This document shows positions 6,764-58,881 of a stretch of DNA of 64,000 nucleotides, in pieces. The stretch covers positions 1 to 64,000 of the forward strand of contig NZ_PIPM01000001.1 of the NCBI RefSeq assembly GCF_003987175.1, read 5' to 3'. Positions within the stretch are counted from its first letter, which is position 1; each line of letters opens with the position of its first letter. The notes beneath the pieces were generated by a model. The model had not been told where the DNA came from. It ran no database searches and saw only the letters and a program-made list of their open reading frames with translations. Source of the DNA: Aliidiomarina sanyensis (lineage in GTDB: Bacteria; Pseudomonadota; Gammaproteobacteria; Enterobacterales; Alteromonadaceae). The position numbers were made by a program, and so were the translations under genes.

Positions 6764-7660
6764 TTAGTGTGAACCGCGTGCAATGCTGACTTGTGACCGA
6801 GGTGTCGTGTTCAATTCGCGAGTAATTGCATAGCCCGCGCGAATCACTCGTTCTAGATCGATCCCAGTCTCGATCCCCATCCCTTGGAGCATATACAGAA
6901 CATCCTCGGTGGCGACGTTTCCGCTCGCACCTTGTGCATAAGGACAACCACCGAGACCGGCCACAGCGCTGTCGATGACACGCACGCCGAGGGGTAAGCA
7001 TGCCGCTAAATTAGCTAAAGCCTGACCATAGGTGTTGTGAAAGTGCAGGGCAAGTTGGTCCATCGGAACCACATCAGCCACTGCGGACAGCATCCGTTGC
7101 GCATGCAGAGGGGTTCCCACACCAATTGTATCGCCCAACGAAATTTCGTAGCACCCCATATCGTGTAGCGCTTGCGCGACCCGAACGACCTCAGACACAG
7201 GAACTTCGCCTTGGTAAGGACAGCCTAAAACACAAGAGACATATCCTCGGACCGGTATGCCTTTCGCTTGTGCGGCTTCAAGAACAGGTGCAAAGCGTTC
7301 AAGTGATTCGGCAATCGAACAGTTGATGTTCTTTTGACTGAATGCTTCAGAGGCAGCACCGAAAATTGCAACTTCATCTGCCCCTGCGGCCATCGCAAGC
7401 TCAAAACCTTTTAAGTTCGGCGTCAGGGCTGTGTAGCGAATCCCCGGTGTGCGGGTAATACCACGCAAGACTTCACCGCTATCCGCCATCTGCGGCACCC
7501 ATTTTGGACTGACAAAGCTGCCTGCCTCAATTGTGCGATACCCTGCTTCACTGAGTGCATTAATCAGCGCAATCTTCGCGTGGGTTGGAACCGCTGCTTC
7601 ATTCTGTAATCCGTCGCGCGGACCGACTTCAACGATTCTGACATCCTTTGGTAGAGCCAT
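6764..7660 (-). CDS. liuE: Hydroxymethylglutaryl-CoA lyase
   Basis: A 298-residue TIM-barrel lyase that cleaves HMG-CoA to acetyl-CoA and acetoacetate, the last specific step of leucine degradation. The N terminus has [11 protein letters not shown] (divalent-metal and substrate residues). The flexible-loop motif G-L-G-G-C-P-Y-A near residue 238 carries the catalytic cysteine. H-F-H-N-T-Y-G supplies metal-ligand histidines. It follows liuD after 24 bp and precedes the acetoacetyl-CoA synthetase by 20 bp. Also called mvaB in other genomes. Confidence 0.97.
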
Positions 7661-7684
7661 AGCTTATCCTCCGACTCAGCGGTT

Positions 7685-9658: not shown

Positions 9659-10488
9659 GATGAGGTTCCATTCGTTTGTTTTTGTTGCCACAGCGGGGCC
9701 CGCTTCTCTAAAAAGGCGCTCAAACCTTCCTGTCCTTCTGGGGACACACGGATTTCAGCGATTCGACGTGCCGTTTCATTGACAAGCTGTTGATCGAGCG
9801 TGTGATTGCTCACGTGATCGATTAATTGTTTGCAGGCAGCGACTGCCGCGGGGCCATTTTGCAACAGCGCCTGGATAACGGGGGCAGCAAGATTTTCAAG
9901 ACTGTGCTGCGCATTATCACCCGCTTCGATGATTCCGTGAATGAGGCCGTATTTCTCGGCCGTTTCTGCATTGAATCGTTCGGCGGTCAACATGTAGCGA
10001 CGTGCCGCAGACAGTCCGAGCGCTCGCACAACATAGGGGCTTATCACAGATGGGATGAGGCCAATCTTGACCTCAGACAAACAAAAGCTAGCCCGTGTGG
10101 TGGCAAAAGCCATATCACAACAAGCCACCAGTCCGACGGCACCCCCAAATGCAGCGCCTTGAACGAGGGCGATGGTTGGCAGGGGAAGGTGATCCAGTTC
10201 CCACATCAGCGCGCCTAACTGACCTGCATCCTCTAAGTTTTCTTGATAGTTTTTCTCTGCCATGGAGCGCATCCATTGCAAGTCGGCTCCTGCCGAGAAG
10301 TTCTTTCCATTGGCTTGCAGGATAAGGATACGGGCAGTTTTGTCCTCGCATACGGCGCGCAACGCCGCACGCAATTCACCAATCATGACATCATCAAATG
10401 CATTGTGAACGTCGGGACGATTCATCGTCAGACGTGCAACCCCTAGGCTGTCTGTTTCTAACGTAATAAAACGAAAAGCGGTGGTCAT
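9655..10488 (-). CDS. liuC: Methylglutaconyl-CoA hydratase (crotonase family)
   Basis: A 277-residue enoyl-CoA hydratase/isomerase family enzyme, predicted from its place between the two MCC subunit genes to hydrate 3-methylglutaconyl-CoA to HMG-CoA. Visible family features are the oxyanion-hole segments N-G-K-N-F-S-A-G-A-D-L and G-A-A-F-G-G-A-V-G-L. The ATG at 10488 is preceded by AAGGAG at ideal spacing, directly after the liuB stop. A GTG two codons further upstream is open but worse placed. Its stop codon overlaps the liuD start by four bases. Confidence 0.94.
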   Translation of the reverse strand: MTTAFRFITLETDSLGVARLTMNRPDVHNAFDDVMIGELRAALRAVCEDKTARILILQANGKNFSAGADLQWMRSMAEKNYQENLEDAGQLGALMWELDHLPLPTIALVQGAAFGGAVGLVACCDMAFATTRASFCLSEVKIGLIPSVISPYVVRALGLSAARRYMLTAERFNAETAEKYGLIHGIIEAGDNAQHSLENLAAPVIQALLQNGPAAVAACKQLIDHVSNHTLDQQLVNETARRIAEIRVSPEGQEGLSAFLEKRAPLWQQKQTNGTSS

Positions 10489-10497
10489 GAGCACTCC

Positions 10498-12105
10498 TTA
10501 CATCCGGAACACGCCAAAACGGGTGTCCTCAATGGGGGCATTTAACGCTGCACTTATTGAGAGCCCAAGCACCATGCGCGTTTGCGCCGGATCGATGATG
10601 CCATCGTCCCACAGACGGGCAGAGGCATAATAAGGATGCCCCTGATGCTCGTAGGTATCAATGATGGGTTGCTTGAACGCTTTTTCATCATCCACACTCC
10701 ACGTTTCACCTTTGCGTTCCTTGCCGTCTCGCGTTACTTGCGCCATGACTCCTGCGGCTTGTTCACCACCCATCACCGAGATACGCGCATTCGGCCACAT
10801 AAACATCAATGTTGGGTCATACGCACGACCGCACATGCCATAATTACCCGCTCCATAACTACCGCCAATTAAGACTGTAAATTTCGGGACCTTGGCACAG
10901 CTCACTGCTGTCACCATTTTGGCACCATGTTTCGCGATCCCCTCGGCTTCGTACTTTTTACCGACCATAAAGCCCGTAATGTTCTGCAAAAACACTAAAG
11001 GAATCTTGCGTTGTGAACACAACTCAATGAAATGCGCCCCTTTTTGCGCAGATTCGGAAAATAAAATCCCGTTGTTAGCGACTATTCCGACTAAATGGCC
11101 ATGAATTCGTGCGAATCCCGTGACGAGGGTGTTGCCATAGTTTTGTTTAAACTCGTCAAAATCTGAGTCATCCACAATTCGGGCAATCACTTCACGCACA
11201 TCGTAGGGCTTGCGAAGGTCGGTCCCTACGATGCCATAGATTTCTTCTTCGGCGTATCGCGGCGGTTTAGTTGGTTGCACATCAAGGGTGGCTTTTGGGG
11301 GACGATTGAGGCGAGAGACTGCGCGGCGGGCAAGCTCAAGCGCGTGCTCGTCATTCAGTGCGAAATGGTCTGCCACGCCGGAGATCCGCGTGTGAACATC
11401 GGCGCCACCGAGTTCCTCTGCACTGACTTCCTCACCCGTTGCCGCTTTCACGAGCGGTGGTCCGGCAAGAAAAATGGTCCCTTGCTCCTTCACGATAATG
11501 GATTCATCTGCCATTGCGGGCACGTATGCGCCGCCGGCCGTACACAGCCCCATCACCACAGCAATCTGCGGAATGTTTTTGGCTGACATATTTGCTTGAT
11601 TGAAGAAAATGCGACCAAAATGATCCCGGTCTGGAAACACTTCATCTTGACGTGGCAAATTGGCACCGCCTGAATCGACAAGATAAATACAGGGTAGGTG
11701 ACAGCGCTCAGCGATTTCTTGAGCGCGAAGATGTTTTTTCACTGTGAGGGGATAATAGGTCCCTCCCTTCACAGTCGCATCATTTGCGACAATCATACAT
11801 TCCACACCGCTTACGCGGCCGATGCCGGCCACAACACCCGCTGCCGGAACGTAATCTTCATAGACATCCCAAGCGGCGAACTGACCAATTTCAAGAAACG
11901 GGCTACCCGCATCCAGGAGTCGTTGAATACGATCGCGAGCAAGGAGTTTGCCGCGCGCCACATGACGCTCTTGGTAACTTTTCCCACCGCCTTGTTTGAT
12001 TTGTTCGGCTTTCGTTTGCAAATCACGAATGACGTCTCGCATGGCTTTGTCATTTGCGATAAAGGCTTCGTCGCGCGCATTTACTTTACTGGTCAGGATC
12101 GCCAC
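10498..12105 (-). CDS. liuB: Methylcrotonyl-CoA carboxylase, beta (carboxyltransferase) subunit
   Basis: A 535-residue carboxyltransferase that moves the carboxyl group from biotin on LiuD to 3-methylcrotonyl-CoA. Typical crotonase-fold glycine-rich elements are present: [19 protein letters not shown], and [16 protein letters not shown] near the C terminus, the last highly typical of MCC beta. Length equals the family norm. Gaps to liuA (21 bp) and liuC (9 bp) indicate one transcript. Confidence 0.97.
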
Positions 12106-12126
12106 TGCTGAGCTCCTTGTTCAATC

Positions 12127-13299
12127 TTATTTCGATTCGGTGAAAAGTTCGCGGCCGATTAACATGCGGCGAATCTCCGAGGTTCCTGCACCGATTTCAT
12201 AAAGCTTAGCATCTCGGAGGAGGCGTCCGGTGGGGTATTCGTTGATATAACCATTTCCACCGAGTAGCTGGATCGCGTCGAGGGCCATTTTTGTCGCAAG
12301 TTCCGCGGCATATAAGATAGCGCCCGCGGCATCTTTGCGCGTGGCCTCACCTCGGTCACACGCTTTTGCAACGGCGTAGACATAAGCACGTGCCGCATTC
12401 ATTTGCGTGTACATGTCCGCTACTTTCCCCTGGACTAACTGGAATTCACCAATGGCCTTACCAAACTGCTCGCGTTCGTGAATGTACGGGACAACAACGT
12501 CCATACACGCTTGCATGATCCCCAAGGGGCCTGCTGCAAGAACGGCTCGCTCATAGTCGAGGCCGCTCATGAGCACCTTCACTCCTTCGTTGAGCTCACC
12601 CAAGATATTCTCAGCGGGGACACGTGCGTCCGCGAAAATTAATTCACAGGTGTTCGAACCGCGCATACCCAGTTTGTCGAGCTTCTGCGCGGTGCTGAAT
12701 CCGGGGGTATTGTCCTTCTCGATGATAAATGCGGTGATTCCTTTTGACCCTGCCGACGGTTCGGTCTTTGCATAGACAACAAGAATGTCTGCATCTGGAC
12801 CGTTGGTGATCCACATTTTATTGCCATTTAGAATATAGTGGTCGCCATCTTTCTTGGCATGAAGTTTCATACTCACCACGTCGGAACCTGCGTTCGGTTC
12901 ACTCATGGCTAGCGCTCCGACATGTTCGCCACTCACCAACTTCGGCAGATACTTTTCCTTTTGTGCTTGTGAGCCGTTAATTTTGATTTGATTCACACAG
13001 AGGTTTGAGTGAGCACCGTAGCTTAAGCCGACCGATGCAGAAGCGCGGCTGATTTCTTCCATTGCGACAACATGTTCAAGGTAGCCCATCCCAGCTCCAC
13101 CAAACGCTTCAGGTACCGTAATACCCAGCAATCCCATATCGCCAAATTTGCGCCACAAATCGGCTGGAAATTCATTCTTCTCATCAATTTCGGCTGCTCG
13201 CGGGGCAATTTCATCGCGAGCAAATGCGTTTACGTGGTCCCGCAACATATCAGCGGTTTCACCTAAATCGAAATTAAATGGTTTGTAGGTACTAAACAT
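12127..13299 (-). CDS. liuA: Isovaleryl-CoA dehydrogenase
   Basis: A 390-residue acyl-CoA dehydrogenase oxidising isovaleryl-CoA to 3-methylcrotonyl-CoA and passing electrons to ETF, hence to the ETF:quinone oxidoreductase encoded at the left of the window. M-S-E-P-N-A-G-S-D and W-I-T-N-G are flavin-site motifs. L-D-Y-E-R-A-V-L-A near residue 254 carries the glutamate in the position specific to isovaleryl-CoA dehydrogenases, instead of the C-terminal position used by medium-chain enzymes. It is the first structural gene after liuR (18 bp). Confidence 0.97.
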
Positions 13300-44598: not shown

Positions 44599-44673
44599 GA
44601 TTCGGCATGTATTGCGTTCGCCATTGAACGTTGTATTCCAATGACAACCAACCTGAATGATGGGTACATAACA

Positions 44674-46002
44674 ATGAAGTCAAATACACTTCCGGCAATC
44701 AAATCTATTGTGCTCGCAGTGACCGCTGCTTTGGCCCTTTCAGCCTGCGGAGAGAATCTAGAGGTTCAATTGATTAATCCGCCAACCGGTGACGATCATG
44801 GTCATGACCACGATCACGACCACGACCACGATCACGGTGACCGTTCAGGTCGCTTAGTCATGACCTCGTTTGATTCGGATCATGCATATGTGCTTGATCT
44901 TCACGATGAAGAGATCATTGCTGATTTTCACCTTACAAACCCGGCGGCCCGTATTTATCCGAGCCCAGGCTATCGTTTCGCCATTGCAATTGAGCGAAAT
45001 GACGGGGTGGTTCGCTTTATCGATAGTGGGTACGAAACCGAGGACCACGGTGACCACGGACATACCCATGAACATGATCCGTCATTACTTGATTTCCAAT
45101 TGTTTGGTGAATTGCCGACCCATTATGACTGGTTCGAAAACCGTGGTGCGGTCTTTTTCGATGGTGTACCTGGCGTTGCAGCAAAAGTCGATGCACTGAG
45201 TGATCATAGCTTAAGCGAAGGCCGTGTGTTGGCGACTCTCGAGCTTGAGCGCAATCAGCATGGAGCCGCCGAAATTCGTGGGCATGATTTATTTGTAAGC
45301 TATCGAAGTGCAGACGCAGAGGGTGTGTTACCTGACTTCGTTGAGCAGTATGAGCGCCACGGAAGTCACTTTGACTTTGTTCAACGGTTTGAAGAACCTT
45401 GCTCACGCTTGCATGGCAGTGCGATTACCCAACTGTATGTGACCTTTGGCTGCGCCGATGGAGTCTTGGTTATTCAAGCGGGCGATGACGGATATGAGGC
45501 AACTAAGTTGCCGAATGTCGCAAGTATCACCGATGCGGGGACCCGCATTGGCACGCTCTATGCTCATGACACGACGCAGAACTTTGTGGGTCGAGCAGGT
45601 CAGGCGCTGTACTGGTTGCACATCGAAGCGAATGATATGCACAGCGTTGAATGGCGTGGTGAAGAGAATTCGGAAGCAACGATCATTTCTGCAGGATTCA
45701 ATTTCAGTGGAAATCGTTTCGCAATTCTCGATAGCACGGGTCATTTGACGATCGTTCGCTTCCGCACTGATCACTATGAAATCCAAAGTGTAATGCATGT
45801 GCTTGACGAAGTCGGCGAACAAGCGCCAAGTATGGCCTTCAGCCCGGTAAACCATGACGCATTTATTGCGGATCCTGCCGGCCGTGAAGTGCTGGTCGTC
45901 GATTTGCATGATGGCGTGATTGAAGATCGTTGGGCTCTTGATTTCTCCCCGGCTGCTGTCACTTGGCTTGGCTTTACTGAAAGCCACGGTCACGCTCACT
46001 AG
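44674..46002 (+). CDS. His-rich lipoprotein, probable zinc-binding beta-propeller
   Basis: A 442-residue lipoprotein with lipobox L-S-A-C (Cys25). Residues 42-54 alternate His and Asp (H-G-H-D-H-D-H-D-H-D-H-D-H), a second cluster reads D-H-G-D-H-G-H-T-H-E-H, and the protein ends H-G-H-A-H. The body has repeated beta-strand units of the kind seen in WD/YncE-like propellers. The Zur site upstream and the histidine clusters point to periplasmic zinc binding; AztD-like zinc chaperones are the nearest family I can think of, but I cannot confirm homology. I use the ATG at 44674 because it starts a proper signal peptide; the frame opens at 44641. Confidence 0.85.
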   Translation: MKSNTLPAIKSIVLAVTAALALSACGENLEVQLINPPTGDDHGHDHDHDHDHDHGDRSGRLVMTSFDSDHAYVLDLHDEEIIADFHLTNPAARIYPSPGYRFAIAIERNDGVVRFIDSGYETEDHGDHGHTHEHDPSLLDFQLFGELPTHYDWFENRGAVFFDGVPGVAAKVDALSDHSLSEGRVLATLELERNQHGAAEIRGHDLFVSYRSADAEGVLPDFVEQYERHGSHFDFVQRFEEPCSRLHGSAITQLYVTFGCADGVLVIQAGDDGYEATKLPNVASITDAGTRIGTLYAHDTTQNFVGRAGQALYWLHIEANDMHSVEWRGEENSEATIISAGFNFSGNRFAILDSTGHLTIVRFRTDHYEIQSVMHVLDEVGEQAPSMAFSPVNHDAFIADPAGREVLVVDLHDGVIEDRWALDFSPAAVTWLGFTESHGHAH

Positions 46003-46111: not shown

Positions 46112-47023
46112 TTAGCTTCCATTTTCAACATGATTCACACCACTGATTACGTTGCGTAGCCATTCTGTGCCTGGATCCTGCGCATGGGCGTCGTGCCAAT
46201 AGATTTGAAGCCGAGTAGGTGTTAGGTCAAATGGCGTCTCCCAAAGTTCGACTGAGAACTGATTAACGAGGCGTGCCGCTATCGACTTTGGAAGCGTCAG
46301 TAAGTCATCGGTACTTGCGACTAACTGCCCAGCAGTTTGATAGCTTTGCACCCTGCTCCCCAGTCGTCGTTCGATCCCAAGCTCACGCAATAGATAGTCT
46401 TCGAGAGCCGTGCCGCGCGGTCGTGAGGAGACGACAATATGTCGGGCGCTCAAATAACGGCCGCTCGTTAGCGTTGAAAGCCCATTGCGACGTCCCAGAA
46501 CCACAAAAGGCTCCCGCGAAAGGGGTCTTTGATGGATAGGTCCTCCAATCGGAAGGGCTACATCAATCGCAACATCCACGATTCGATTTAATAGATGCTC
46601 ACTGAGTTGGCTGTGTGGAACGGCGATACTTTCAAATCGAGCATGTGGTGCCGCATTTGCAAGACGCGTGTAGAGTCTTGGAAAAAGCTCAGGCTCGATT
46701 GCTTCAGGGATACCAAGCCGAAAGACGCGCCGTGTCTCATGCGGGACAAATGACTTTCCGCGCTCAATCAGGCCCTGCATTCGGAGTAGTAGTTCGTGCA
46801 CTTCAGGGGCAAGTTTGTCGCACATGGGCGTTGGACGAAGCTGACGCCCACTTCGCAGAAATAGTGGGTCGTTGAATTGTTCTCGAAGGCGCCGCAGTGC
46901 ATGACTAATAGCGGAGGGTGTTAAAGCGAGTGACGCAGCGGCCCGAGCGAGTTGACGCTCCCGATAAATGGCCACAAGCACCCGAAGTAGATTTAAATCG
47001 GTCTTTAAATGAATATTGTTCAT
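46112..47023 (-). CDS. LysR-family transcriptional regulator
   Basis: A 303-residue regulator. The N-terminal helix-turn-helix reads R-Q-L-A-R-A-A-A-S-L-A-L-T-P-S-A-I-S-H-A, followed by L-R-R-L-R-E-Q-F and a periplasmic-binding-protein-like ligand domain (about 95-300). It is divergent, 82 bp from the acyl-CoA dehydrogenase gene, so it most likely controls the four-gene cluster at 47,106-50,937 and itself. The inducer is unknown; by context an acyl or hydroxyacyl compound is plausible. Confidence 0.93.
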   Translation of the reverse strand: MNNIHLKTDLNLLRVLVAIYRERQLARAAASLALTPSAISHALRRLREQFNDPLFLRSGRQLRPTPMCDKLAPEVHELLLRMQGLIERGKSFVPHETRRVFRLGIPEAIEPELFPRLYTRLANAAPHARFESIAVPHSQLSEHLLNRIVDVAIDVALPIGGPIHQRPLSREPFVVLGRRNGLSTLTSGRYLSARHIVVSSRPRGTALEDYLLRELGIERRLGSRVQSYQTAGQLVASTDDLLTLPKSIAARLVNQFSVELWETPFDLTPTRLQIYWHDAHAQDPGTEWLRNVISGVNHVENGS

Positions 47024-47105
47024 GTTATTAGCTGATTAAATTTCACTTCATTCATCTTAGGAAACTTCGTAGGATGAGCCAACTTCTTTTTTTAAGGGAT
47101 TGGGT

Positions 47106-48338
47106 ATGTTTGGACGTTCAGAACTCGCACAGCAATATTTAGGGCGCGTAAAAGCTTTTATGGCTGAGCATATCGAGCCAATTGAGCATGAAGTGTTGCA
47201 AGCTATGCATACAAGCCAAGGGCATGGTCGTTGGCAGGAATGGAAAGTTCCTGCGGTGATCGAGACGCTGAAGGCACAAGCGAAAGCAGACGGTTTGTGG
47301 AATCTTTTTTTACCAGATAGCCGTCTGGCACAAGGATTAAGCACATTAGACTATGCGCCGCTTGCAGAGCAAATGGGTCGCTCGATCATTGCCCCTGAAG
47401 TTTTCAACTGCAATGCACCCGATACTGGGAACATGGAAGTGTTATATCACTACGGAACCGATCAACAACGTAAAATGTGGCTTACCCCGCTACTCAACGG
47501 CGAGATTCGTTCGGTTTTCGCCATGACGGAACCCGATGTAGCCTCATCCGACGCGACGAACATGGAAACGCGCATCGTTGCCGATGGCGATGATGTGATT
47601 GTTTCCGGACGTAAATGGTGGACTACCGGGTTGGGCCACCCAAATGCAAAAGTTGCGATTGTTATGGGGCTTACCGATCCTGAAGCAGATCGTCACGCGC
47701 GCCATTCGATGGTTCTCGTCCCCCTTGATGCCCCCGGCGTAACCATTGCGCGGATGTTACCTGTATTCGGAGACTACGATGCGCCTTATGGCCACGGCGA
47801 AGTCATTTTCGATGAAGTTCGTGTCCCCAAGAGCTACGTAATTGGACGATTGGGTGCAGGATTTGCGATTGCCCAAGGACGCTTGGGTCCGGGTCGTATT
47901 CATCATTGTATGCGTGCATTAGGAGCTGCCGAGCGTTGCTTGGAACTGATGATTCAACGAGCGACATCACGGATCGCTTTTGGGAAGCCGCTGATCAAGC
48001 TCGGTGACAATGGAACGCGCATCGCGAAACATCGGATGGCCATTGATCAAGCGCGCTTGTATACGTTGTATACGGCAGGTGTTATCGATAGTCACGGGGT
48101 GCGCGCTGCGGCGAGTGAGATTGCTGGCATCAAAGCCGTGGTTCCGACTGTGCTTCAGAGCGTTGTAGACGATGCAATCCAAATGCATGGCGGCGGTGGG
48201 TTGAGCCACGATTATCCCTTCACTGCTTTTTATGCAGTCGCACGCGCGTTGCGCCTTGCCGATGGCCCAGATGAAGTGCATCAAGCGATGGTGTTGCGCC
48301 AAGAGCTACGTAAATATAAATCAACACAGGATGTCTAA
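47106..48338 (+). CDS. Acyl-CoA dehydrogenase, ACAD10/11-LvaC type
   Basis: A 410-residue flavoenzyme of the acyl-CoA dehydrogenase superfamily. M-T-E-P-D-V-A-S-S-D replaces the more usual E-P-G-S-G-S-D flavin motif. G-R-L-G-P-G-R-I-H-H-C-M-R and the C-terminal L-A-D-G-P-D-E-V-H-Q are features I associate with the branch containing mammalian ACAD10/11 and Pseudomonas LvaC. By eye the aspartate in A-D-G-P sits where medium-chain enzymes have the catalytic glutamate. AAGGGA lies six bases before the ATG at 47106. The gene runs directly into the kinase gene, which in that branch supplies a phosphorylated substrate. Confidence 0.9.
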   Translation: MFGRSELAQQYLGRVKAFMAEHIEPIEHEVLQAMHTSQGHGRWQEWKVPAVIETLKAQAKADGLWNLFLPDSRLAQGLSTLDYAPLAEQMGRSIIAPEVFNCNAPDTGNMEVLYHYGTDQQRKMWLTPLLNGEIRSVFAMTEPDVASSDATNMETRIVADGDDVIVSGRKWWTTGLGHPNAKVAIVMGLTDPEADRHARHSMVLVPLDAPGVTIARMLPVFGDYDAPYGHGEVIFDEVRVPKSYVIGRLGAGFAIAQGRLGPGRIHHCMRALGAAERCLELMIQRATSRIAFGKPLIKLGDNGTRIAKHRMAIDQARLYTLYTAGVIDSHGVRAAASEIAGIKAVVPTVLQSVVDDAIQMHGGGGLSHDYPFTAFYAVARALRLADGPDEVHQAMVLRQELRKYKSTQDV

Positions 48339-48339
48339 C

Positions 48340-49437
48340 ATGCCGAGCACGCATTCAACGGTGATTGACCGGGGCGTCGAGGTCCGGCCGGAAGAGCGTT
48401 TTGATGTTCAGGCGGTCACTGAGTGGTTATTACGAAAACGTCCTGAGCTTGAGGGAGAGCCTGAAGTTACACAGTTTCTAGGGGGCGCATCGAATTGGAC
48501 GTACCGTTTAAAGTACGCCAATGCAGACCTTATTTTACGTCGTCCGCCGGCGGGAACAAAAGCAAAATCCGCGCATAATATGCAGCGAGAACACGATATT
48601 CAGCTGATGTTGAAGCGGTTTTACCCAACTGTTCCTACCATGGTGGGGTATTGCAGTGATACATCGATCATAGGAACAGATTTTTACGTCATGGAGCGAA
48701 TCGAGGGCATCATTCCTCGCAAGAATCTCCCGGGTGATCTTCAGTTATCAAGCGAACAAGTTCGCACACTTTGTACCGAAATGCTTGACCAGCTTATTGC
48801 CTTGCATCAAGTGAATTATGTTGAAGCTGGGTTGGACAGCTTAGGCAAAGGCTCCGGTTACATTGAGCGACAAGTTGAGGGCTGGATCCGCCGCTATGAT
48901 CAAGCAAAAACGTGGAATGTGACGCACGCTAAACAGATTAAGCGATGGCTCCGCGAGCACCAGCCGAGACAAGAAAACTTGTGTATAACCCATAACGATT
49001 TTCGTTTTGATAACTTGGTCTTGAACCCGGATAACCCGACCGAGATTCTCGCCGTGCTTGATTGGGAGCTTGCGACTATCGGTGATCCTCTCATGGAGCT
49101 TGGGAATATGTTAGCGTACTGGGTTCAAGCAGATGACGACCGACTCGCTCGTGCCACCCGGCGTCAACCCACCCACCTGCCAGGAATGTTCACGCGAGAA
49201 GAAGTGATTGCGTACTATTGCGAGAAAATGAATCTCGGTGATGTTGATATGACTTTTTATGAGGTGTTCGGTCTGTTTCGTTTGTCCGTCATTGCGCAGC
49301 AAATCTACTATCGATACCATCACAAACAGACTCGCAATCCTCAGTTCAAGAATTTCTGGATAATTGTCAATTACTTGCATTGGCGTTGCTGGCGTCTCAT
49401 CCGTCGCAACGGACGGACTCAGAGGCGGGGTCGCTGA
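48340..49437 (+). CDS. APH-family phosphotransferase, probable acyl-CoA hydroxyl kinase
   Basis: A 365-residue kinase of the aminoglycoside-phosphotransferase fold. A glycine-containing ATP loop (L-G-G-A-S-N-W-T-Y-R-L) is followed by catalytic H-N-D-F-R-F-D-N near residue 219 and metal-binding L-D-W-E-L-A-T-I-G-D-P. The same fold forms the N-terminal domain of ACAD10/11 and LvaA, which phosphorylate the 4-hydroxy group of acyl-CoAs. Being adjacent to the dehydrogenase supports that role over antibiotic resistance. The ATG at 48340 has AGGA at suitable distance; another ATG at 48331 overlaps the previous gene. Confidence 0.9.
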   Translation: MPSTHSTVIDRGVEVRPEERFDVQAVTEWLLRKRPELEGEPEVTQFLGGASNWTYRLKYANADLILRRPPAGTKAKSAHNMQREHDIQLMLKRFYPTVPTMVGYCSDTSIIGTDFYVMERIEGIIPRKNLPGDLQLSSEQVRTLCTEMLDQLIALHQVNYVEAGLDSLGKGSGYIERQVEGWIRRYDQAKTWNVTHAKQIKRWLREHQPRQENLCITHNDFRFDNLVLNPDNPTEILAVLDWELATIGDPLMELGNMLAYWVQADDDRLARATRRQPTHLPGMFTREEVIAYYCEKMNLGDVDMTFYEVFGLFRLSVIAQQIYYRYHHKQTRNPQFKNFWIIVNYLHWRCWRLIRRNGRTQRRGR

Positions 49438-50150
49438 TGCCGCTCGTAAGCTTAGTTCGCCATGGGCAAGCGTCATTTGGCGCCGCTGACTACGATCAGC
49501 TTTCGGATTTAGGGTATCAACAGTTAGAACATCTGGGTGCTCAGCTCAGGGAGCGTGATGAACATGTTGATGTTTTTGTCCGCGGAACCTTACGGCGTCA
49601 CGCGCAGTCGCTGGATGCATTGATGACAGGATATGGTACATCCGGTGGGGCAACGGATGTTGTTGTGGATGCTGCATGGAATGAATTCGATCACCGCGCG
49701 GTGATGCGTGCACTTGGTAAAGCGCAACCGGAACTTCGTTCCTTGTTTGCGACAGATGGTACGCCATTGATTGATGGAGATAGCGTTCTAGCGCTCTTTA
49801 TGCAGTCGGTAGAACGGTGGCAAAACGACGAGCATGATGCGGACTACGAGGAATCCTGGAGCGCATTTGTTGCACGGGTCGAACGGGCGTGGTCCCAACT
49901 TCAGGCGCGCTTCGATGCGTCACGGATTTTGGTGTTGACGTCCGGCGGTCCGATTTCTCTGTCGGCGTCTGCTAGTTTAGGACTGCCTTCAGAACACATG
50001 ATGAAAATCAACGCTCAGTTAGTGAATAGTGGGATTTCACGTTTTCTCTGTCGTTCGCAGCGAAACACAGGCCCACATCGAAAACTTTTGAGCCTAAACG
50101 AACACAGCCACGTCAGTGGCCGCCACCAGCATTTGCTCACGTATCGTTGA
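49437..50150 (+). CDS. Histidine-phosphatase-superfamily protein with altered second histidine
   Basis: A 237-residue protein of the phosphoglycerate-mutase-like fold. R8-H9-G10 (V-R-H-G-Q-A-S), the arginine in L-R-R-H-A-Q and the acidic residue in W-N-E-F-D-H are present. Where the second catalytic histidine normally stands (S-H-G-G), this protein reads L-T-S-G-G-P-I. It may have altered activity, or another residue may compensate. Its start overlaps the kinase stop by one base (TGATG), so it belongs to the same transcript. It could remove phosphate from pathway intermediates, but this is inference. Confidence 0.87.
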   Translation: MPLVSLVRHGQASFGAADYDQLSDLGYQQLEHLGAQLRERDEHVDVFVRGTLRRHAQSLDALMTGYGTSGGATDVVVDAAWNEFDHRAVMRALGKAQPELRSLFATDGTPLIDGDSVLALFMQSVERWQNDEHDADYEESWSAFVARVERAWSQLQARFDASRILVLTSGGPISLSASASLGLPSEHMMKINAQLVNSGISRFLCRSQRNTGPHRKLLSLNEHSHVSGRHQHLLTYR

Positions 50151-50184
50151 GTGAGTGCATCAGGAATAGTGAAGGGAATTTAGA

Positions 50185-50937
50185 ATGCGCAAGAATATAG
50201 TAATTACGGGAGCAAGCTCAGGTCTTGGAGAAGAAATGGCTCGGCAATTTGCGGCTATGGGGCGAAATCTCGGTTTGTGCGCCCGCCGGACCGAACGACT
50301 TGAAGCATTGAAGGCGGAGATCGAAGCAAAGCATCCGGATGTTAACGTCATTTTAAAGGAGTTAGATGTCAACGATCATGAGGCAGTCTTTCGCGTTTTT
50401 AATGAGTTTAAAGCAGCGTTTGGAACCATTGATCGGGTGATCGTGAATGCCGGGATGGGGAAGGGTGGACCGCTTGGAACAGGTCTATTTAAATACAACA
50501 AGTTGACGGCAGAAACCAACTATATCGCGGCGTTGGCGCAATGTGAGGCAGCTTTGGAAATCTTCCATGCGCAAAAATCTGGGCATCTCGTGACTATTGC
50601 ATCGATCAGTGCATTACGCGGCATGCCTCGAGCGATGACATCCTATGCCTCGAGTAAAGCTGCGCTCGTAAATTTAACCGAGGGGATACGGGCTGAGCTC
50701 ATTCGGACCAACAGTCCGATAAAAACGAGCTGCATCCTGCCGGGCTTTATTCGCTCTGAAATCAATGAGAAGGTGAAGAATACGCCGTTTATGTGTGATA
50801 CCGTGCCCGGTGTGCGGAGTATGGTTCGTGCGATAGAAAAAGAGCGCGTTCATGCTTACGTCCCAGGTTGGCCGTGGACATTGGTGGCGTTCTTACTAAA
50901 GCGACTCCCGCTGAAAACGACACTAAAGCTCGGCTAA
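50185..50937 (+). CDS. Short-chain dehydrogenase/reductase
   Basis: A 250-residue classical SDR. T-G-A-S-S-G-L-G is the cofactor motif; N-A-G-M-G and the catalytic residues Ser in A-S-I-S, Tyr154 and Lys158 (Y-A-S-S-K) are intact. The C terminus V-P-G-W-P-W-T-L-V-A-F-L-L-K-R resembles SDRs that associate with membranes. In the cluster it may oxidise or reduce a hydroxyacyl intermediate, as LvaD is thought to in Pseudomonas (analogy only). The GAAGGGA site lies upstream, 34 bp from the previous gene. Confidence 0.9.
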   Translation: MRKNIVITGASSGLGEEMARQFAAMGRNLGLCARRTERLEALKAEIEAKHPDVNVILKELDVNDHEAVFRVFNEFKAAFGTIDRVIVNAGMGKGGPLGTGLFKYNKLTAETNYIAALAQCEAALEIFHAQKSGHLVTIASISALRGMPRAMTSYASSKAALVNLTEGIRAELIRTNSPIKTSCILPGFIRSEINEKVKNTPFMCDTVPGVRSMVRAIEKERVHAYVPGWPWTLVAFLLKRLPLKTTLKLG

Positions 50938-50983
50938 TCCGCAAGCACTGGTGTTGATGGAACGGTTAACGAAGGAGGCAATG

Positions 50984-51790
50984 ATGGATATTAAGCTGTA
51001 TCAGGTGGATGCATTTACCGAACGTCCATTTGGTGGAAATCCTGCCGCAGTGTGCCCCTTAGGTGGATGGCCTGAAGATACTTTATTGCAAGCAATTGCC
51101 GAGGAAAACAATCTTTCGGAGACTGCGTTTTTCGTGCCTGAAGGTGCAGGCTTTCGCTTGCGTTGGTTTACCCCGAAAGCGGAAGTTGATCTATGCGGTC
51201 ATGCTACCTTGGCGACCGCCCATGTCCTTTTTGCACGACTCGCATACGAAAAACCTGAAGTTACCTTTTACACGCGCAGTGGAGAACTTCGCGTAAAACG
51301 TGTTTCGGAAGGGTATCAGATGGATTTTCCCGCATCGATTCCGCTTCCTGTTGATCCTCCACAGGCGCTCATGGTGGGACTCGGTGTTGCACCTGAACAG
51401 GTATTGGCCGCTTATGATTATGTGGTCGTTCTTGGGTCCGAAAAAGAGGTTCGTGAGTTGAACCCTGATTTTCAAACACTTTCGGAATTGGACGGGCGCG
51501 GTGTGTTAGTGACCGCGCCGGGCGAAGACGTCGATTTCGTGAGCCGGTGCTTCTTCCCCAAACTTCGTGTTAATGAAGATCCGGTCACCGGTTCAGCTCA
51601 TTGTGAGCTTGCCCCGTATTGGGCGGAGCGTCTGAATAAACACAACCTTCGTGCAAAGCAACTCTCAGCGCGGGGTGGACAATTACAATGTATGGTCGAA
51701 GTAAATGAAGAAACGCACGCTGCTGAACGCGTACTTCTCGTTGGTAAAGCGGTCGATTATCTCGACGGGATGATTCGTCTTCCAGACTAA
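50984..51790 (+). CDS. PhzF-family isomerase/epimerase-like protein
   Basis: A 268-residue PhzF-like protein with the diaminopimelate-epimerase fold. The conserved acid is E46 in N-N-L-S-E-T-A-F-F, with G-G-N-P-A-A-V and D-P-V-T-G-S-A-H as family motifs. Substrate unknown; many non-phenazine bacteria carry such a gene. AAGGAGG fits the ATG at 50984 better than the adjacent ATG at 50981, and the frame is open to 50951. Confidence 0.93.
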   Translation: MDIKLYQVDAFTERPFGGNPAAVCPLGGWPEDTLLQAIAEENNLSETAFFVPEGAGFRLRWFTPKAEVDLCGHATLATAHVLFARLAYEKPEVTFYTRSGELRVKRVSEGYQMDFPASIPLPVDPPQALMVGLGVAPEQVLAAYDYVVVLGSEKEVRELNPDFQTLSELDGRGVLVTAPGEDVDFVSRCFFPKLRVNEDPVTGSAHCELAPYWAERLNKHNLRAKQLSARGGQLQCMVEVNEETHAAERVLLVGKAVDYLDGMIRLPD

Positions 51791-51821: not shown

Positions 51822-52772
51822 ATGAAGACTTTAAAATGGATTGGATTGACCCTTGCCTTGCTCCTGCTGGTGGTACTCGTTTTCGTTTTTTATAACCACT
51901 TTCGTCATTTTGATGAGTCTGTCACCTTAAGTGAGACTCATCGCACTGCAGCCCCTGGACATTTTGTTCGGTTATCGCAAGGCTATACACATTATGAGAT
52001 TGCCGGTCCCGATGAAGGTGCTGTGGTGGTGCTCGTGCACGGGTTTAGCATTCCGGGGGTAGTTTGGGGGGATACGTTTGAGGCGCTGGCAGACGCCGGA
52101 TTTCGGGTGATTCGTTACGACCTGTATGGACGCGGCTATTCTGATCGCCCGCGGGTACAATACAATCATGCGGTGTTTGTGAATCAGTTGATTGAGCTTC
52201 TTGATGCGCTCGAAATTCAAGATAAGGTGCAGCTTGTTGGGCTCTCAATGGGTGGGGCGGTGACCATGCATACAGCGGCCCTTCATCCGGAGCGAGTACA
52301 AGCTGTCGCACTCATAGCGCCTCTTCACCAGCCACTTCAACCGCCTCCGATGCCTGAGCGGATCGGGTATTACATGATCTCTGGATTCTACGTCCCGGGA
52401 TTACGGAGCAGCCTGGAAGCCGAATATCTGCGTCCTGAGCAGCGCTCTGAGATGCAAGCAGCCTATGATGCGCAAATGCGCTTCCGTGGCTTTACCCAAG
52501 CGCTTACATCCTCATTTTATGCTTTCACCACCGAAGATCATCCGAGTCGCTATCGTGCGACCAAGGAATACGATTTACCCGTGATGTTAATTTGGGGAAC
52601 GCGCGACACCATTGTTCCATACGGACAGCATGAAGGGGTGCTTACGGATGCAAATGTAGTGAAGTTCCTTACGATCGATGGTGCGGGTCATACACCGCAC
52701 CTCGAGCAGCCAGATTATGTAAATGATCGCTTGGAGTACTTTCTTCGCAGAACGCTGCGCAACGGCCATTAA
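51822..52772 (+). CDS. Membrane-anchored alpha/beta hydrolase
   Basis: A 316-residue alpha/beta-hydrolase with an N-terminal TM anchor (about 5-24). Oxyanion motif V-H-G-F-S-I-P-G, nucleophile Ser142 in G-L-S-M-G-G-A, an aspartate in W-G-T-R-D-T-I-V-P-Y and a histidine in G-A-G-H-T-P-H make a full triad. The substrate is not evident. The stop codon overlaps the stop codon of the convergent PhoX-like gene. Confidence 0.92.
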   Translation: MKTLKWIGLTLALLLLVVLVFVFYNHFRHFDESVTLSETHRTAAPGHFVRLSQGYTHYEIAGPDEGAVVVLVHGFSIPGVVWGDTFEALADAGFRVIRYDLYGRGYSDRPRVQYNHAVFVNQLIELLDALEIQDKVQLVGLSMGGAVTMHTAALHPERVQAVALIAPLHQPLQPPPMPERIGYYMISGFYVPGLRSSLEAEYLRPEQRSEMQAAYDAQMRFRGFTQALTSSFYAFTTEDHPSRYRATKEYDLPVMLIWGTRDTIVPYGQHEGVLTDANVVKFLTIDGAGHTPHLEQPDYVNDRLEYFLRRTLRNGH

Positions 52773-54763
52773 GTGCCAATCACGCCGCCGTCTTCGCGGG
52801 TAATGATGACGGTGGCGGATCGCGGCCGTGAGCCGAAGTTTCCGGGCCAATGACTCGATGGCGCCTCAATGGTTGAACCTTCCCCGGGGTGTTGGACGTT
52901 GATGAACATGGTTTTCCGATCCGGTGTGGTGACCACACCGGTGATTTCACATCCTACGGGTCCCGTTAAAAAGCGTTTTACCAGCCGGCGGTTTGGATCC
53001 GCCACGAGCATTCCATTGTTGCCATAGACCGGACCGCCCTGAATTGCGCCACTCATGTCAGTTTGGATCCAGAGAAGTCCGGCCGAATCAAACCACAGCC
53101 CATCGGCACACGCATGGTGATTGTCGTCGGAAAGCTGAATTGATGTCGCAGGCGTGTAGGTTCCCGGAGCGCCACCAAATAAAAAAATATCCCAGACAAA
53201 CGCAGTGCTTGCTTGTTCTCCCTGTTCTCGCCAACGAATGATATGGCCTGCGTAGTTTTCTGCTCGCGGGTTCGCTGGGTCAACTTGTCCAGCAGTCCGT
53301 CGCGTGTTGTTGGTGAGCGTGAAATAGACTTCCCCTGTATCTGGATGCACTGCGCCCCATTCAGGACGGTCCATGGGCGTTGCCCCCGCAAGATCCGCAG
53401 CTAGTCGCGTATTAATGAGAAGATCGCCTAGGTCTTCGAACACAATCCCTTGTTCCATCGCACGTTTTTGTAGTTCTAAGTTTTCAAGGGTAAGGGGGAG
53501 CCACTCGCCGCGTCCTTGCTCATTGAAGCGGGCGACATAGAGGGTTCCTTCAGTCAGCAGATGAGAGCCCGCATTCGCTCGATAATAGGGCCGCGACGAA
53601 ACGAATTTATAAATATATTCAAAGCGAGAGTCATCGCCCGAATAGGCGACCAGAGGCTCCCCTTCGACTGGAGGGGCAAACACCACGCCTTCGTGCGCAA
53701 AGCGTCCAAGTGCCGTGTGTTTCACTGGAACATGGCGTGGATTGAACGGGTCAATTTCGACAATCCAACCAAAGGTGTTCGGTTCATTGCGATAGTCCTC
53801 GTGAGCAGACGCTCCGCGCGGAGTTGCGTCAAAGCGGCGATGCTCATCAGCGGCGTCCGATGCCGTCTCCCAGTAGTACCGTCCATGCGTTGTCCCGACG
53901 CCATAGCGTGTATGCTCTTTAGGCTGTGAGTCGCGATTCACAAAGTATCGAGCCCAGTTTTCCTCGCAGGTCAGGTAGGTTCCCCAGGGCGTGTACCCAT
54001 GTGCACAGTTATTCAAGGTGCCACGCGCCGCGTTCCCTTCCGGACTGTATTTTGTTATGAGTTTCTCATGTCCAGCGGCAGGGCCGCTAAACTTCATCGG
54101 TGTGTAGCCGGTGATCCGCCGATTCAAAGGGCTTTGTTGTTGCAGCTGCCAGGTTGCTCCGGTTTTTTTGATATGCGCAATGGAGACGCCATGCGCGGCC
54201 ATTTCTTTGTGCACCTCATCGGCGGGTCGAGGCGGTGGAGTGGGGCCATGTGCATGCAGGAAGTTCGGATCCACGTATTCATGGTTCATCACCAATAAGC
54301 CTTCGTCTGAATTCAGCCCCGTGGTTCGCGCATCGAGCGGAAAGAAATGCATTCCATCGTGGTGGGCGCCGACCTGCGCCAACTGATCATTCCCCGTATT
54401 GGTCCCATCGGCTTTATATTCAGGAGCATTCGGTAACAGTGGCGATCCTTCAGGGAGAAATGCCTGCGCGCGGTAGCCGTCAGGTACCGTGACGTTATCC
54501 GCGTGACTAATCGGGATCGCTGAGAATGCGAGGGACTGCTCGCCGAGATTGAGGGGGTTATAAGAGCTCGCACATGCACTCAAGAGCGCAAGCGAGGCCC
54601 CACCTAAGGAAGCTTGTAAGAATCGACGCCGGCTAAGATTTACATTGACGACATCGTAGAAATCACGATTGCCACTATAATTCGTTTGCGGATCGATACC
54701 TGAATTATCGATCCGGGGGACGTCGTGGCGCCACATGGTGCTTTTGTTGGATTCTGGACGCAT
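52769..54763 (-). CDS. PhoX-family (DUF839) Tat-exported lipoprotein
   Basis: A 664-residue protein with a twin-arginine signal S-R-R-R-F-L-Q-A-S-L-G-G (about 44-55) that ends at a lipobox-like L-S-A-C (Cys64), so it is probably folded in the cytoplasm and anchored as a lipoprotein. The body carries DUF839/PhoX features such as N-C-A-H-G-Y-T-P-W-G-T-Y-L-T-C-E-E, G-R-F-A-H-E-G and G-D-D-S-R-F-E-Y. PhoX enzymes are calcium/iron phosphatases, but this branch is not proven to be one. The ATG at 54763 has GAGG eight bases upstream; the frame extends to 54826. A TATAAT lies at 54826-54831 on the minus strand. Confidence 0.88.
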   Translation of the reverse strand: MRPESNKSTMWRHDVPRIDNSGIDPQTNYSGNRDFYDVVNVNLSRRRFLQASLGGASLALLSACASSYNPLNLGEQSLAFSAIPISHADNVTVPDGYRAQAFLPEGSPLLPNAPEYKADGTNTGNDQLAQVGAHHDGMHFFPLDARTTGLNSDEGLLVMNHEYVDPNFLHAHGPTPPPRPADEVHKEMAAHGVSIAHIKKTGATWQLQQQSPLNRRITGYTPMKFSGPAAGHEKLITKYSPEGNAARGTLNNCAHGYTPWGTYLTCEENWARYFVNRDSQPKEHTRYGVGTTHGRYYWETASDAADEHRRFDATPRGASAHEDYRNEPNTFGWIVEIDPFNPRHVPVKHTALGRFAHEGVVFAPPVEGEPLVAYSGDDSRFEYIYKFVSSRPYYRANAGSHLLTEGTLYVARFNEQGRGEWLPLTLENLELQKRAMEQGIVFEDLGDLLINTRLAADLAGATPMDRPEWGAVHPDTGEVYFTLTNNTRRTAGQVDPANPRAENYAGHIIRWREQGEQASTAFVWDIFLFGGAPGTYTPATSIQLSDDNHHACADGLWFDSAGLLWIQTDMSGAIQGGPVYGNNGMLVADPNRRLVKRFLTGPVGCEITGVVTTPDRKTMFINVQHPGEGSTIEAPSSHWPGNFGSRPRSATVIITREDGGVIGT

Positions 54764-54853
54764 GAAAGGTGCCTCACTCGGTAAAGGGATGATTGCGTCC
54801 GTGACCCTAGCAAGGCAATGTGACAATTATATTTCAACGTAGCGCTTTTGCGA

Positions 54854-56441: not shown

Positions 56442-57206
56442 ATGATGGTGCAACTTAATTGCGATTTAGGTGAAAGCTTCGGCGCCTGGTCAATGGGTGA
56501 CGACGCAGCGGTGATGGCCTTTATCGACGAAGCCAATATCGCCTGTGGATTTCACGCAGGCGATCCGCTGACCATGGAAAAGACCATCGCCCTTGCGAAG
56601 GCTCATGATGTTGCAATTGGTGCCCATCCCGCCTACCCAGACCTCGAAGGATTCGGACGTCGCTCGATGGCATTGAGTGAGCAAGAGGTCTACAGCAATG
56701 TGCTTTACCAAGTAGGCGCTTTGTCAGCATTTTGTCGGGCACAGGGTGTCGCGCTGCGATACGTGAAACCTCATGGCGCGCTTTATCATGATCTCCTCAT
56801 CCAAGATGCAACTTTTCGGGGTGTCGTGCGTGCCATCGCGGACTTTGATGCGACCCTTCCGCTGGTTATTTTAGCGCAGCAGAATCCGTCGCATTGGCAA
56901 GAGCAAGCAGCCAAATATGGGGTGGAATTACGATTCGAAGCTTTTGCTGACCGCACCTATGAAGATGACGGTCGACTGCGTTCGCGGCGGGAGCCGGGGG
57001 CCGTGCTTCTGGAGCCCGCACAAATTGTGGCTCAGGCGCTACAAATTGCCCAGTTCGGTACGGTCACTACCTATTCAGGTCATACGATAGCACTGTCCGC
57101 TGACACCTTGTGTGTCCATGGCGACACACCGAGCGCTTTGGATGCCGTGAAGCAGATCCGGACAGCGCTTGATGCGCTTCGAACCTCTGCAGGAGAAGGA
57201 ATATGA
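56442..57206 (+). CDS. pxpA: 5-oxoprolinase subunit A (LamB/YcsF family)
   Basis: A 254-residue subunit of the ATP-dependent prokaryotic 5-oxoprolinase, which converts 5-oxoproline to glutamate. L-N-C-D-L-G-E-S-F-G at the N terminus, A-C-G-F-H-A-G-D-P, G-A-H-P-A-Y-P-D and Y-V-K-P-H-G-A-L-Y are family motifs. Four-base ATGA overlap with pxpB. Confidence 0.96.
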   Translation: MMVQLNCDLGESFGAWSMGDDAAVMAFIDEANIACGFHAGDPLTMEKTIALAKAHDVAIGAHPAYPDLEGFGRRSMALSEQEVYSNVLYQVGALSAFCRAQGVALRYVKPHGALYHDLLIQDATFRGVVRAIADFDATLPLVILAQQNPSHWQEQAAKYGVELRFEAFADRTYEDDGRLRSRREPGAVLLEPAQIVAQALQIAQFGTVTTYSGHTIALSADTLCVHGDTPSALDAVKQIRTALDALRTSAGEGI

Positions 57207-57958
57207 AGGATGGACCAGAAGCATTATTGGAGCGACCAGAACTGACGTTCACAGCAGCGGGCGTTGATGCACTTTTAATGCAGTTCGGACGGACCATGAA
57301 TCCCTGTTTGCCTGATTTTCTGGCCCAGCTCCGCGAGACTATTTTGTCGGATCTTTCATCTGTGGTTCTTGAAGTCGTTCCCGCTTACACCACCTTGTTG
57401 GTGTACTATGAACCACGACTCGTTCGTATTTTTGACTTAGAACAGGCGTTGACACAATTAAGCGATGCGACGCCGTGGGCGTGCACTCCATGGTCTGGTG
57501 ATCCTGAAAAAAACGAGTCGCTGATTCAAGTGCCTGTTTGTTACGACCGGCGGGTTGCACCGGATCTACAGGCAATTTCCGAAGCAACCGGAATGTCCGA
57601 GGATGACATCATTAAGTGCCACACCGACCCTATTTATCAAGTCTATGCGCTAGGCTTTGCCCCCGGTTTTGCTTACCTTGGCGAAGTACCTAAGCCACTG
57701 CAAATCCCACGTCTCGCAGAACCACGGACGCACGTACCTGCAGGCTCCGTTGGTATTGCAGGGGCGCAAACAGCGGTCTATCCCGACGATTCTCCCGGTG
57801 GGTGGCATTTGATTGGCCGGAGTCCGTTTCGTTGGTTCGATCCCCAAAGCACCCCAATGACCCCGGTACAAGTGGGTGATCGTATCCGATTCTACGGCAT
57901 CGAGTACGATGAGTTCGAGGCGTTATGGAGTAAGCATCATGGGGAGAAGCCAGAATGA
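57203..57958 (+). CDS. pxpB: 5-oxoprolinase subunit B (KipI family)
   Basis: A 251-residue KipI-type subunit. G-F-A-P-G-F-A-Y-L-G and the C-terminal G-W-H-L-I-G-R-S-P-F segment are characteristic. It overlaps pxpA and pxpC by four bases each, so all three are translationally coupled. Confidence 0.95.
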   Translation: MKDGPEALLERPELTFTAAGVDALLMQFGRTMNPCLPDFLAQLRETILSDLSSVVLEVVPAYTTLLVYYEPRLVRIFDLEQALTQLSDATPWACTPWSGDPEKNESLIQVPVCYDRRVAPDLQAISEATGMSEDDIIKCHTDPIYQVYALGFAPGFAYLGEVPKPLQIPRLAEPRTHVPAGSVGIAGAQTAVYPDDSPGGWHLIGRSPFRWFDPQSTPMTPVQVGDRIRFYGIEYDEFEALWSKHHGEKPE

Positions 57959-58881
57959 CAGGATTTCGTGTTCTCAAAGGGGGAATCCTTACGCTCATTC
58001 AAGATATAGGGCGCTTGGGATATCAGCATTTGGGGGTATCTCGTGGCGGACCCTTGGATGCGCAATCAGCCTATTGGGCAAATCGACTACTGGATAATGA
58101 ACCGAGCGCGGCAGTGCTCGAAATTACTGCCGGTGGATTTGAAGTTGAGGCGCAATCACAGACCATGGTGGCGGTCACGGGCGGTGACTTGAATTTAACC
58201 ATCAACGGTGAGCCACAGGCTCCATGGCGCAGCTTCTGGGTTCGGCAAGGGGATCGTCTGAAGTTTGGAACACCTCGATATGGTTTTCGTGCTTACCTAG
58301 CGGTTTCTGGTGGATTCCAGACGGAGCCGGTGCTTGGAAGTCGGGCAACCGTTGCGCGGGATAAGTTAGGCGGCGTGAATGGACACGGGGAAGCTGTTCG
58401 AGAAGGGGATTACCTGCCTTGTAAGCATCTGACAAGTGAAGGGATTGCACGGCAAATTCCACAGCGCTATCTGCCGCAAATAAGCCAACAGATCACGTTA
58501 CATCTCATACCTGGCTATCAGCAACATGAGTTCAGCAAGGGCACGTGGCAGCAACTGTGGAATCAGGAATTCAAACTCGATCATCAGAGCAATCGGCAGG
58601 GGGCGCGCCTGCAAGGTAAAGCACTTCCAGTTCCTGCGGGAGAGTTTTTATCGGAAGGCGTGAGTTACGGTGCGGTTCAAGTTCCTCCGAACGGTCAGCC
58701 GATTATTATGCTCGATGACCGTCAATCACTCGGTGGGTATCCAAAGCTGGGTAATATCCTTCCATTAGATGGCTTTAAGCTTGCGCAATGTGCGCCTGGA
58801 GCCGTCATTCGATTCCAGCCGATTCATCTGGCGGCAGCGCAACAACAAATGCGACGCTATCTTCGCTTTTTCGGCTTGTAA
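57955..58881 (+). CDS. pxpC: 5-oxoprolinase subunit C (KipA family)
   Basis: A 308-residue subunit of the biotin-dependent-carboxylase-like KipA family. Q-D-I-G-R-L-G-Y-Q-H-L-G-V-S-R-G-G-P-L-D is at the N terminus, and D-D-R-Q-S-L-G-G-Y-P and L-A-V-S-G-G-F are further motifs. Last gene of the oxoprolinase operon. Confidence 0.95.
   Translation: MTGFRVLKGGILTLIQDIGRLGYQHLGVSRGGPLDAQSAYWANRLLDNEPSAAVLEITAGGFEVEAQSQTMVAVTGGDLNLTINGEPQAPWRSFWVRQGDRLKFGTPRYGFRAYLAVSGGFQTEPVLGSRATVARDKLGGVNGHGEAVREGDYLPCKHLTSEGIARQIPQRYLPQISQQITLHLIPGYQQHEFSKGTWQQLWNQEFKLDHQSNRQGARLQGKALPVPAGEFLSEGVSYGAVQVPPNGQPIIMLDDRQSLGGYPKLGNILPLDGFKLAQCAPGAVIRFQPIHLAAAQQQMRRYLRFFGL

Follow-up and report, generated by a model that had tools for sequence, protein, structure and literature searches.

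A LysR-linked kinase and ACAD10/11-type dehydrogenase cluster in Aliidiomarina sanyensis, with a serine-variant phosphatase-fold partner, as a probable entry of 4-hydroxyacyl-CoAs into beta-oxidation

The DNA analysed here, called the window below, is a stretch of 64,000 nucleotides from Aliidiomarina sanyensis (contig NZ_PIPM01000001.1, positions 1 to 64,000 of the forward strand), and the genome it comes from is 2.59 Mb in size and 99.5% complete. An earlier note on this DNA had placed an acyl-CoA dehydrogenase (ACAD), an APH-type kinase, a histidine-phosphatase-fold protein (HP) and a short-chain dehydrogenase/reductase (SDR) together, divergent from a LysR-family regulator, and all five genes are found at these places and belong to these families, with small corrections of their starts (Table 1). 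We regard it as probable, from the genes and their conservation, that they constitute a LysR-controlled module which brings 4-hydroxyacyl-CoAs into beta-oxidation. The likeliest start of the ACAD gene is the ATG at 47106, preceded by AAGGGA, where the list of open reading frames (ORFs) had a TTG at 47100. The kinase gene starts one base past the ACAD stop, and the HP gene shares one base with the kinase stop in the overlap TGATG, which suggests that the translation of ACAD, kinase and HP is coupled.

Table 1. Features of the cluster and its downstream neighbours, in positions of the window.
Feature	Position	Strand	Basis or remark
LysR-family regulator	46112..47023	-	Pfam HTH_1 and LysR_substrate; divergent from the rest of the cluster
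Predicted LysR operator/promoter element TTCACTTCATTCAT (likely)	47042..47055	+	Conserved intergenic site
ACAD10/11/LvaC-type acyl-CoA dehydrogenase (ACAD)	47106..48338	+	PDB relatives, pocket residues, tree
APH-fold kinase, predicted 4-hydroxyacyl-CoA kinase	48340..49437	+	PF01636, E 7.1e-45; catalytic residues; tree
Histidine-phosphatase-fold protein (HP), Ser169 replacing the second active-site His	49437..50150	+	
SDR oxidoreductase "SDR2" (NF006099/PRK08251)	50185..50937	+	NCBIfam equivalog, 382.8 bits, cut-off 253
PhzF-family isomerase, possibly co-transcribed	50951..51790	+	TIGR00654; linked only in close Aliidiomarina
Alpha/beta hydrolase, possibly co-transcribed	51822..52772	+	PF00561; linked only in close Aliidiomarina

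That the dehydrogenase is of the ACAD10/11 kind, as the earlier note had it, agrees with both the tree and a pocket motif. The nearest solved structures are 4hr3 and ACAD11, and in the alignment R259, H267, R270 and D386 of the window ACAD correspond to R626, H634, R637 and D753 of mouse ACAD11. In the ACAD11 work (PMC12440821), the three first of these hold the 4-phosphate next to the catalytic D753, and changing them to Ala or Leu is reported there as most disruptive to the ACAD step. Judged by alignment, the window ACAD carries all the residues that ACAD11 requires for phosphate elimination. The motif R-x7-H[CSA]MR separates the ACADs of the fetched loci sharply: it is present in 118 of 118 that score above 500 bits (117 distinct, 115 with exactly HCMR) and in all 16 between 250 and 500 bits, and in none of the 27 (25 distinct) between 60 and 250 bits. 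ADGPD is present in two ACADs whose catalytic Asp a crude pattern had missed. The tree places the window ACAD in a 43-row clade that contains mouse ACAD11 (support 100) and there in a 27-row subclade of its own (99), with nine ordinary ACADs set apart (99); these supports, and those of the kinase tree, are SH-aLRT values from a quick search.

The APH-type kinase of the earlier note likewise has the matching fold and intact catalytic residues. The motifs HND..xDN and DWE are present, and D222, N227, D243, W244 and E245 (P0001 numbering, two ahead of Met1) are invariant in 11 of 11 aligned kinases. The closest structures are 9o56 and the ACAD11 kinase. R179, also invariant in the 11, aligns with R176 of ACAD11, which modelling has placed at the CoA (PMC12440821); R85, which neighbours the alpha-C Glu, does not vary either, and the paper's R86 is not matchable to a numbered residue. 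The reading as an ordinary fatty acyl-CoA dehydrogenase standing beside a resistance kinase was rejected, given the ACAD10/11 pocket of the ACAD and an NCBIfam APH(3') match of 31.9 bits, far under the cut-off of 205. The kinase tree, rooted on kinases linked to DUF6285 (PF19802, which we take to be the family of LvaB of the levulinate, lva, pathway), has three parts: the window clade of 37 rows (support 98), a 21-row clade (97) with the ACAD11 kinase and a kinase of Burkholderia multivorans, and the DUF6285-linked kinases in a separate clade of 10 rows. By this tree the window kinase is a sister to, and not a member of, the ACAD11-kinase clade. HPs accompany both of the first two clades, the examples in the ACAD11-kinase clade being L276, L315-L317, L210, L211 and L216.

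The survey of homologue neighbourhoods that the earlier note had proposed supports the cluster as a unit. The best named relatives of the kinase, among at least 579, are those of A. halalkaliphila and A. shirensis, with 78% identity. From these at least 579 relatives the best 80 named loci were picked by kinase similarity, and the 71 with 3 kb on both sides were counted (nine with short flanks were dropped), using hidden Markov models built from the window's relatives. Near the kinase there is an HP in 49 of the 71, SDR2 in 58, a second SDR (SDR1) in 21, a divergent LysR in 27 and a motif-bearing ACAD in 59, for which 61 is the better figure when two HSMR forms are counted, since L129 and L178, among the 12 loci scored without an ACAD, do carry one with HSMR. 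At the level of the class, the kinase was found at E <= 1e-40 in 29 of 274 genomes, our own included, and at E <= 1e-80 in 11; in ten of the 11, an HP at E <= 1e-15 lies no more than about 2.1 kb from the kinase, and in the eleventh, G120, the HP falls under that cut-off but is present at 54 bits, 1.1 kb away. From these comparisons, the gene arrangement is not due to chance. The module is common, occurring in Gammaproteobacteria, Myxococcota and Actinomycetota, but it is not universal among near kin, since neither kinase nor HP was found at the cut-offs used in another genome of the same family (G139) and one of the same order (G252). Its fullest form, with public annotation in Pseudoalteromonas, is a divergent LysR followed by ACAD-SDR-kinase-HP-SDR, and in Azospirillum the order is LysR / ACAD-kinase-HP-SDR-SDR. 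The loci of Pyxidicoccus (L122) and Kribbella (L185) have ACAD, both SDRs, kinase and HP, and the middle SDR is missing in the window and its five Aliidiomarina relatives.

A conserved site, TTCAYTTNATTCAT, is located between the LysR and ACAD genes. The 14-mer TTCACTTCATTCAT at 47042-47055 occurs exactly in the window, in three of the five Aliidiomarina loci (L117, L118, L121) and in two Alteromonas loci (L151, L164), always at the same intergenic place; no exact copy was found in the Aliidiomarina loci L119 and L120. With up to three mismatches it is found in 27 of 45 LysR-ACAD regions, while the reversed motif is found in none of the 45. The fairer figure is 23 of 41, as it omits four Idiomarinaceae loci where the motif was first spotted by eye; among the regions, L320 duplicates L077, and the Acinetobacter loci include many close relatives. 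An 18-base form of the site matches the genome exactly at a single place, and at one more with two mismatches. The element is likely a LysR operator or promoter element to which the regulator presumably binds, and the control by LysR that the earlier note had assumed gains comparative support from its conservation. The conserved site looks new.

The route that we propose is read from genes, residues, trees and conservation. The kinase would phosphorylate the 4-hydroxyl of an acyl-CoA with ATP, and the FAD-bound ACAD, with its Arg-His-Arg pocket and catalytic Asp, would then expel the phosphate to give a 2-enoyl-CoA without any net redox change. The SDR would probably interconvert 4-oxoacyl-CoA and 4-hydroxyacyl-CoA, which is the role of LvaD. 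The 2-enoyl-CoA would pass to FadB/FadJ, and could be used in this organism since two 3HCDH frames in the genome match FadB/FadJ in size (750 and 710 amino acids), each near a thiolase (C12 and C47); they are named fadBA/fadJI-like by size and layout. A kinase and an ACAD of Burkholderia pseudomallei, orthologues of LvaA and LvaC (Q63VL0 and its partner), were able to replace the ACAD10 domains in vitro, as reported in PMC11342911.

Several observations weigh against this route. There is no CoA ligase among the cluster genes and the neighbours scanned with Pfam, a scan of part of the window's ORFs. The ACAD may serve other purposes too, since its kind also occurs without any recognisable kinase nearby: in one genus, with genomes of 5.5-7.2 Mb, all 25 genomes carry an ACAD of the ACAD10/11 type, and LysR and ACAD stand together without a recognisable kinase in five of its loci (L308, L309, L311, L330, L331) as well as in other genomes of the order (L310, L312, L313), while L322 has LysR, ACAD and both SDRs, again with no recognisable kinase. 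The earlier note had also let its idea depend on both enzymes falling on the ACAD10/11-LvaA/C branch; this was borne out for the ACAD, which lies inside the ACAD11 clade, but not for the kinase, which lies outside the ACAD11-kinase clade as its sister, and its substrate could therefore differ. Following this thought, the pair might perform the same chemistry on a different hydroxyacyl-CoA, with another chain, a branched or cyclic one, or the hydroxyl at another position. The separation of the two kinase clades, with supports of 98 and 97, speaks for it, and so do the PhzF and alpha/beta hydrolase neighbours in Aliidiomarina, which hint at a special substrate. Among the loci searched, the PhzF gene is downstream only in L117 and L118, and the hydrolase gene in L117-L120. 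The pocket residues that hold the 4-phospho group are however unchanged and the ACAD groups with ACAD11, and we find a different substrate unlikely, if still worth keeping in mind. Directly downstream of this region, on the opposite strand, lies a gene for a PhoX-family alkaline phosphatase (window 52769-54826).

In the route with a 4-hydroxyacyl-CoA as substrate, the HP would be an accessory protein that is translated with the kinase. Its most likely task would be to keep stray 4-phosphoacyl-CoA, or a different phosphorylated by-product, in check or to repair it, through either binding or slow hydrolysis. The histidine phosphatase superfamily is defined by two His and two Arg. The two-His core is described in PMC10728186. 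The HP of the window has the fold, the RHG His, the second Arg and the acidic residue of branch 1 of the superfamily, and lacks the second catalytic His. All 91 HPs share the nucleophile H9, the two arginines and the acidic E83, and every one of them has a Ser at position 169, where the second active-site His is expected; in five printed alignments Ser169 aligns to the His of the PDB proteins, which include PGAM5 and other branch-1 histidine phosphatases. The 91 comprise every HP of the fetched loci, and the kinase was the query by which most of these were retrieved. The sole other PF00300 match in the genome spans only the first 72 positions and gives no control for the second His. Our searches, limited to open-licence papers, found no report of a His-to-Ser HP subfamily, and the invariant variant looks new.

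The HP tends to follow the pathway and is, as far as the genomes tell, yet dispensable. A kinase lies within 5 kb of 81 of the 91 HPs, and of the 16 genomes retrieved with the HP alone, 13 carry a kinase within that distance. Among 24 genomes without an HP at the kinase locus, 14 had no hit at E <= 1e-12 in a search that recovered three positive controls; several of the 24 are metagenome assemblies, where absence is weaker, and L141 and L169 hold less than 2 kb downstream. The other ten have an HP elsewhere: in five of them it adjoins a different ACAD that bears the motif, accompanied in three by a second kinase, and in the other five there is neither such an ACAD nor a kinase beside it. Among the 14 are two Idiomarina and two Pseudidiomarina genomes, and because these four keep ACAD, kinase and SDR without a detectable HP, the HP is best seen as accessory. 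Its dispensability in the four genomes looks new, and an obligate phosphate-removing step was set aside on this ground; a regulator or repair protein is favoured over it.

The authors of the Pseudomonas citronellolis study propose phosphate removal by the HP (PMC6692424), and one could imagine that it regularly removes the phosphate from 4-phosphoacyl-CoA here too, with the invariant nucleophile, arginines and acid in its favour. We hold this to be rather improbable: the ACAD retains every residue by which ACAD11 expels the phosphate itself, plain hydrolysis would merely reverse the kinase, a Ser stands in place of the second active-site His, and 14 genomes gave no HP match, the four of Idiomarina and Pseudidiomarina with ACAD-kinase-SDR among them. 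A bolder idea, which we put forward only tentatively and consider clearly less likely than not, is that the serine-variant HP serves specifically to regulate or proofread the 4-hydroxyacyl-CoA kinase, as a convergent bacterial counterpart of the degenerate HAD domain of ACAD10. If this is true, the route would have gained a modified phosphatase fold on at least two occasions, to prevent the build-up of 4-phosphoacyl-CoA, and in P. putida LvaB would take that place. The invariant His-to-Ser change renders the role of the HP directly testable.

That the cluster is a true levulinate catabolic (lva) operon of A. sanyensis is highly improbable: kinase, ACAD and SDR match LvaA, LvaC and LvaD in kind and the lva-type cluster of P. 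citronellolis likewise has an HP (PMC6692424), but the regulator is a LysR and not of the sigma-54 type, no LvaE- or LvaR-like gene was found among the genes scanned around the cluster, a part of the window's ORFs, and the genome has no match to PF19802 (DUF6285, the presumed family of LvaB). The levulinate or valerolactone substrate that the earlier note had in mind thus receives no specific support, a CoA ligase being absent from the scanned neighbours as well. DUF6285 was also considered as a marker for true lva operons. A search of the order gave 30 places in 28 genomes, and in the 20 contexts fetched (L250-L269) an APH kinase stands beside DUF6285 in all 20, and no ACAD above 430 bits was found in these stretches. 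The marker was rejected, as the kinases form a separate clade and no such ACAD accompanies them, and LvaA (Q88G01) and LvaC of P. putida were not identified in this way, nor through searches for the ACAD in an order and in a genus, or through searches of plasmids. In L101 (5866-7326) a single ORF matches both DUF6285 and the APH kinase, which suggests a kinase-DUF6285 fusion.

Other genes of the window can be mentioned briefly. An ORF at 44641-46002, for which Pfam gave no match, is rich in His and Asp over a stretch close to its start and perhaps binds metal. On the minus strand, at 6764-13299, there are genes for an HMG-CoA lyase-like protein, a biotin carboxylase, an enoyl-CoA hydratase, a carboxyltransferase and an acyl-CoA dehydrogenase, a set that resembles the leucine/isovalerate (liu) operon. 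At 56442-58881, LamB/YcsF and carboxyltransferase A/B genes make up an apparent 5-oxoprolinase (pxp) set.

The ACAD10/11 route has been explained in two papers, from 2024 and 2025, and bacterial clusters where the route is split into genes, with a conserved partner, are simple systems for studying the control of the phospho-intermediate and the natural substrates. Like the window, mammalian ACAD10 and ACAD11 combine the kinase fold with an ACAD that has the R...HCMR...D pocket, and the kinase has a partner with a phosphatase fold in ACAD10, a HAD domain, and here, the HP. HP and HAD are different folds. The HAD domain of ACAD10 is described as lacking one Asp of DxD and as restraining the kinase (PMC11342911). 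Unlike in ACAD10 and ACAD11, the genes of the window are separate, and its kinase is in the sister clade to that of ACAD11 (the tree has no ACAD10 row). In a B. multivorans locus, HP, kinase, two SDRs and ACAD stand together, with a kinase that, unlike the one of the window, belongs to the ACAD11-kinase clade.

The lvaABCDE operon of P. putida KT2440 follows, by description, the same logic of kinase, ACAD and SDR, and as described it has LvaB, LvaE and LvaR and no HP. In the account given in PMC6692424, LvaA and LvaB of P. putida phosphorylate, LvaC eliminates, and LvaB was pulled down with LvaA. Closer still is the lva-type cluster of P. citronellolis LA18T (PCLA_07f0390-0396), which by its description in the same paper has kinase, HP, ACAD and SDR and no LvaB, like the window. 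The earlier note had taken the phosphatase-like member as foreign to the published lva set; this published cluster contradicts it, and the novelty of the HP is weaker than was then stated. The P. citronellolis cluster, with the order kinase-HP-ACAD-SDR, adjoins LvaE2, a symporter and a sigma-54 LvaR homologue (PMC6692424), where the window has a LysR and the order ACAD-kinase-HP-SDR. By these comparisons the cluster of A. sanyensis is a variant form of the known route: the regulator differs, the kinase stands in a clade separate from that of ACAD11, and the HP has the serine.

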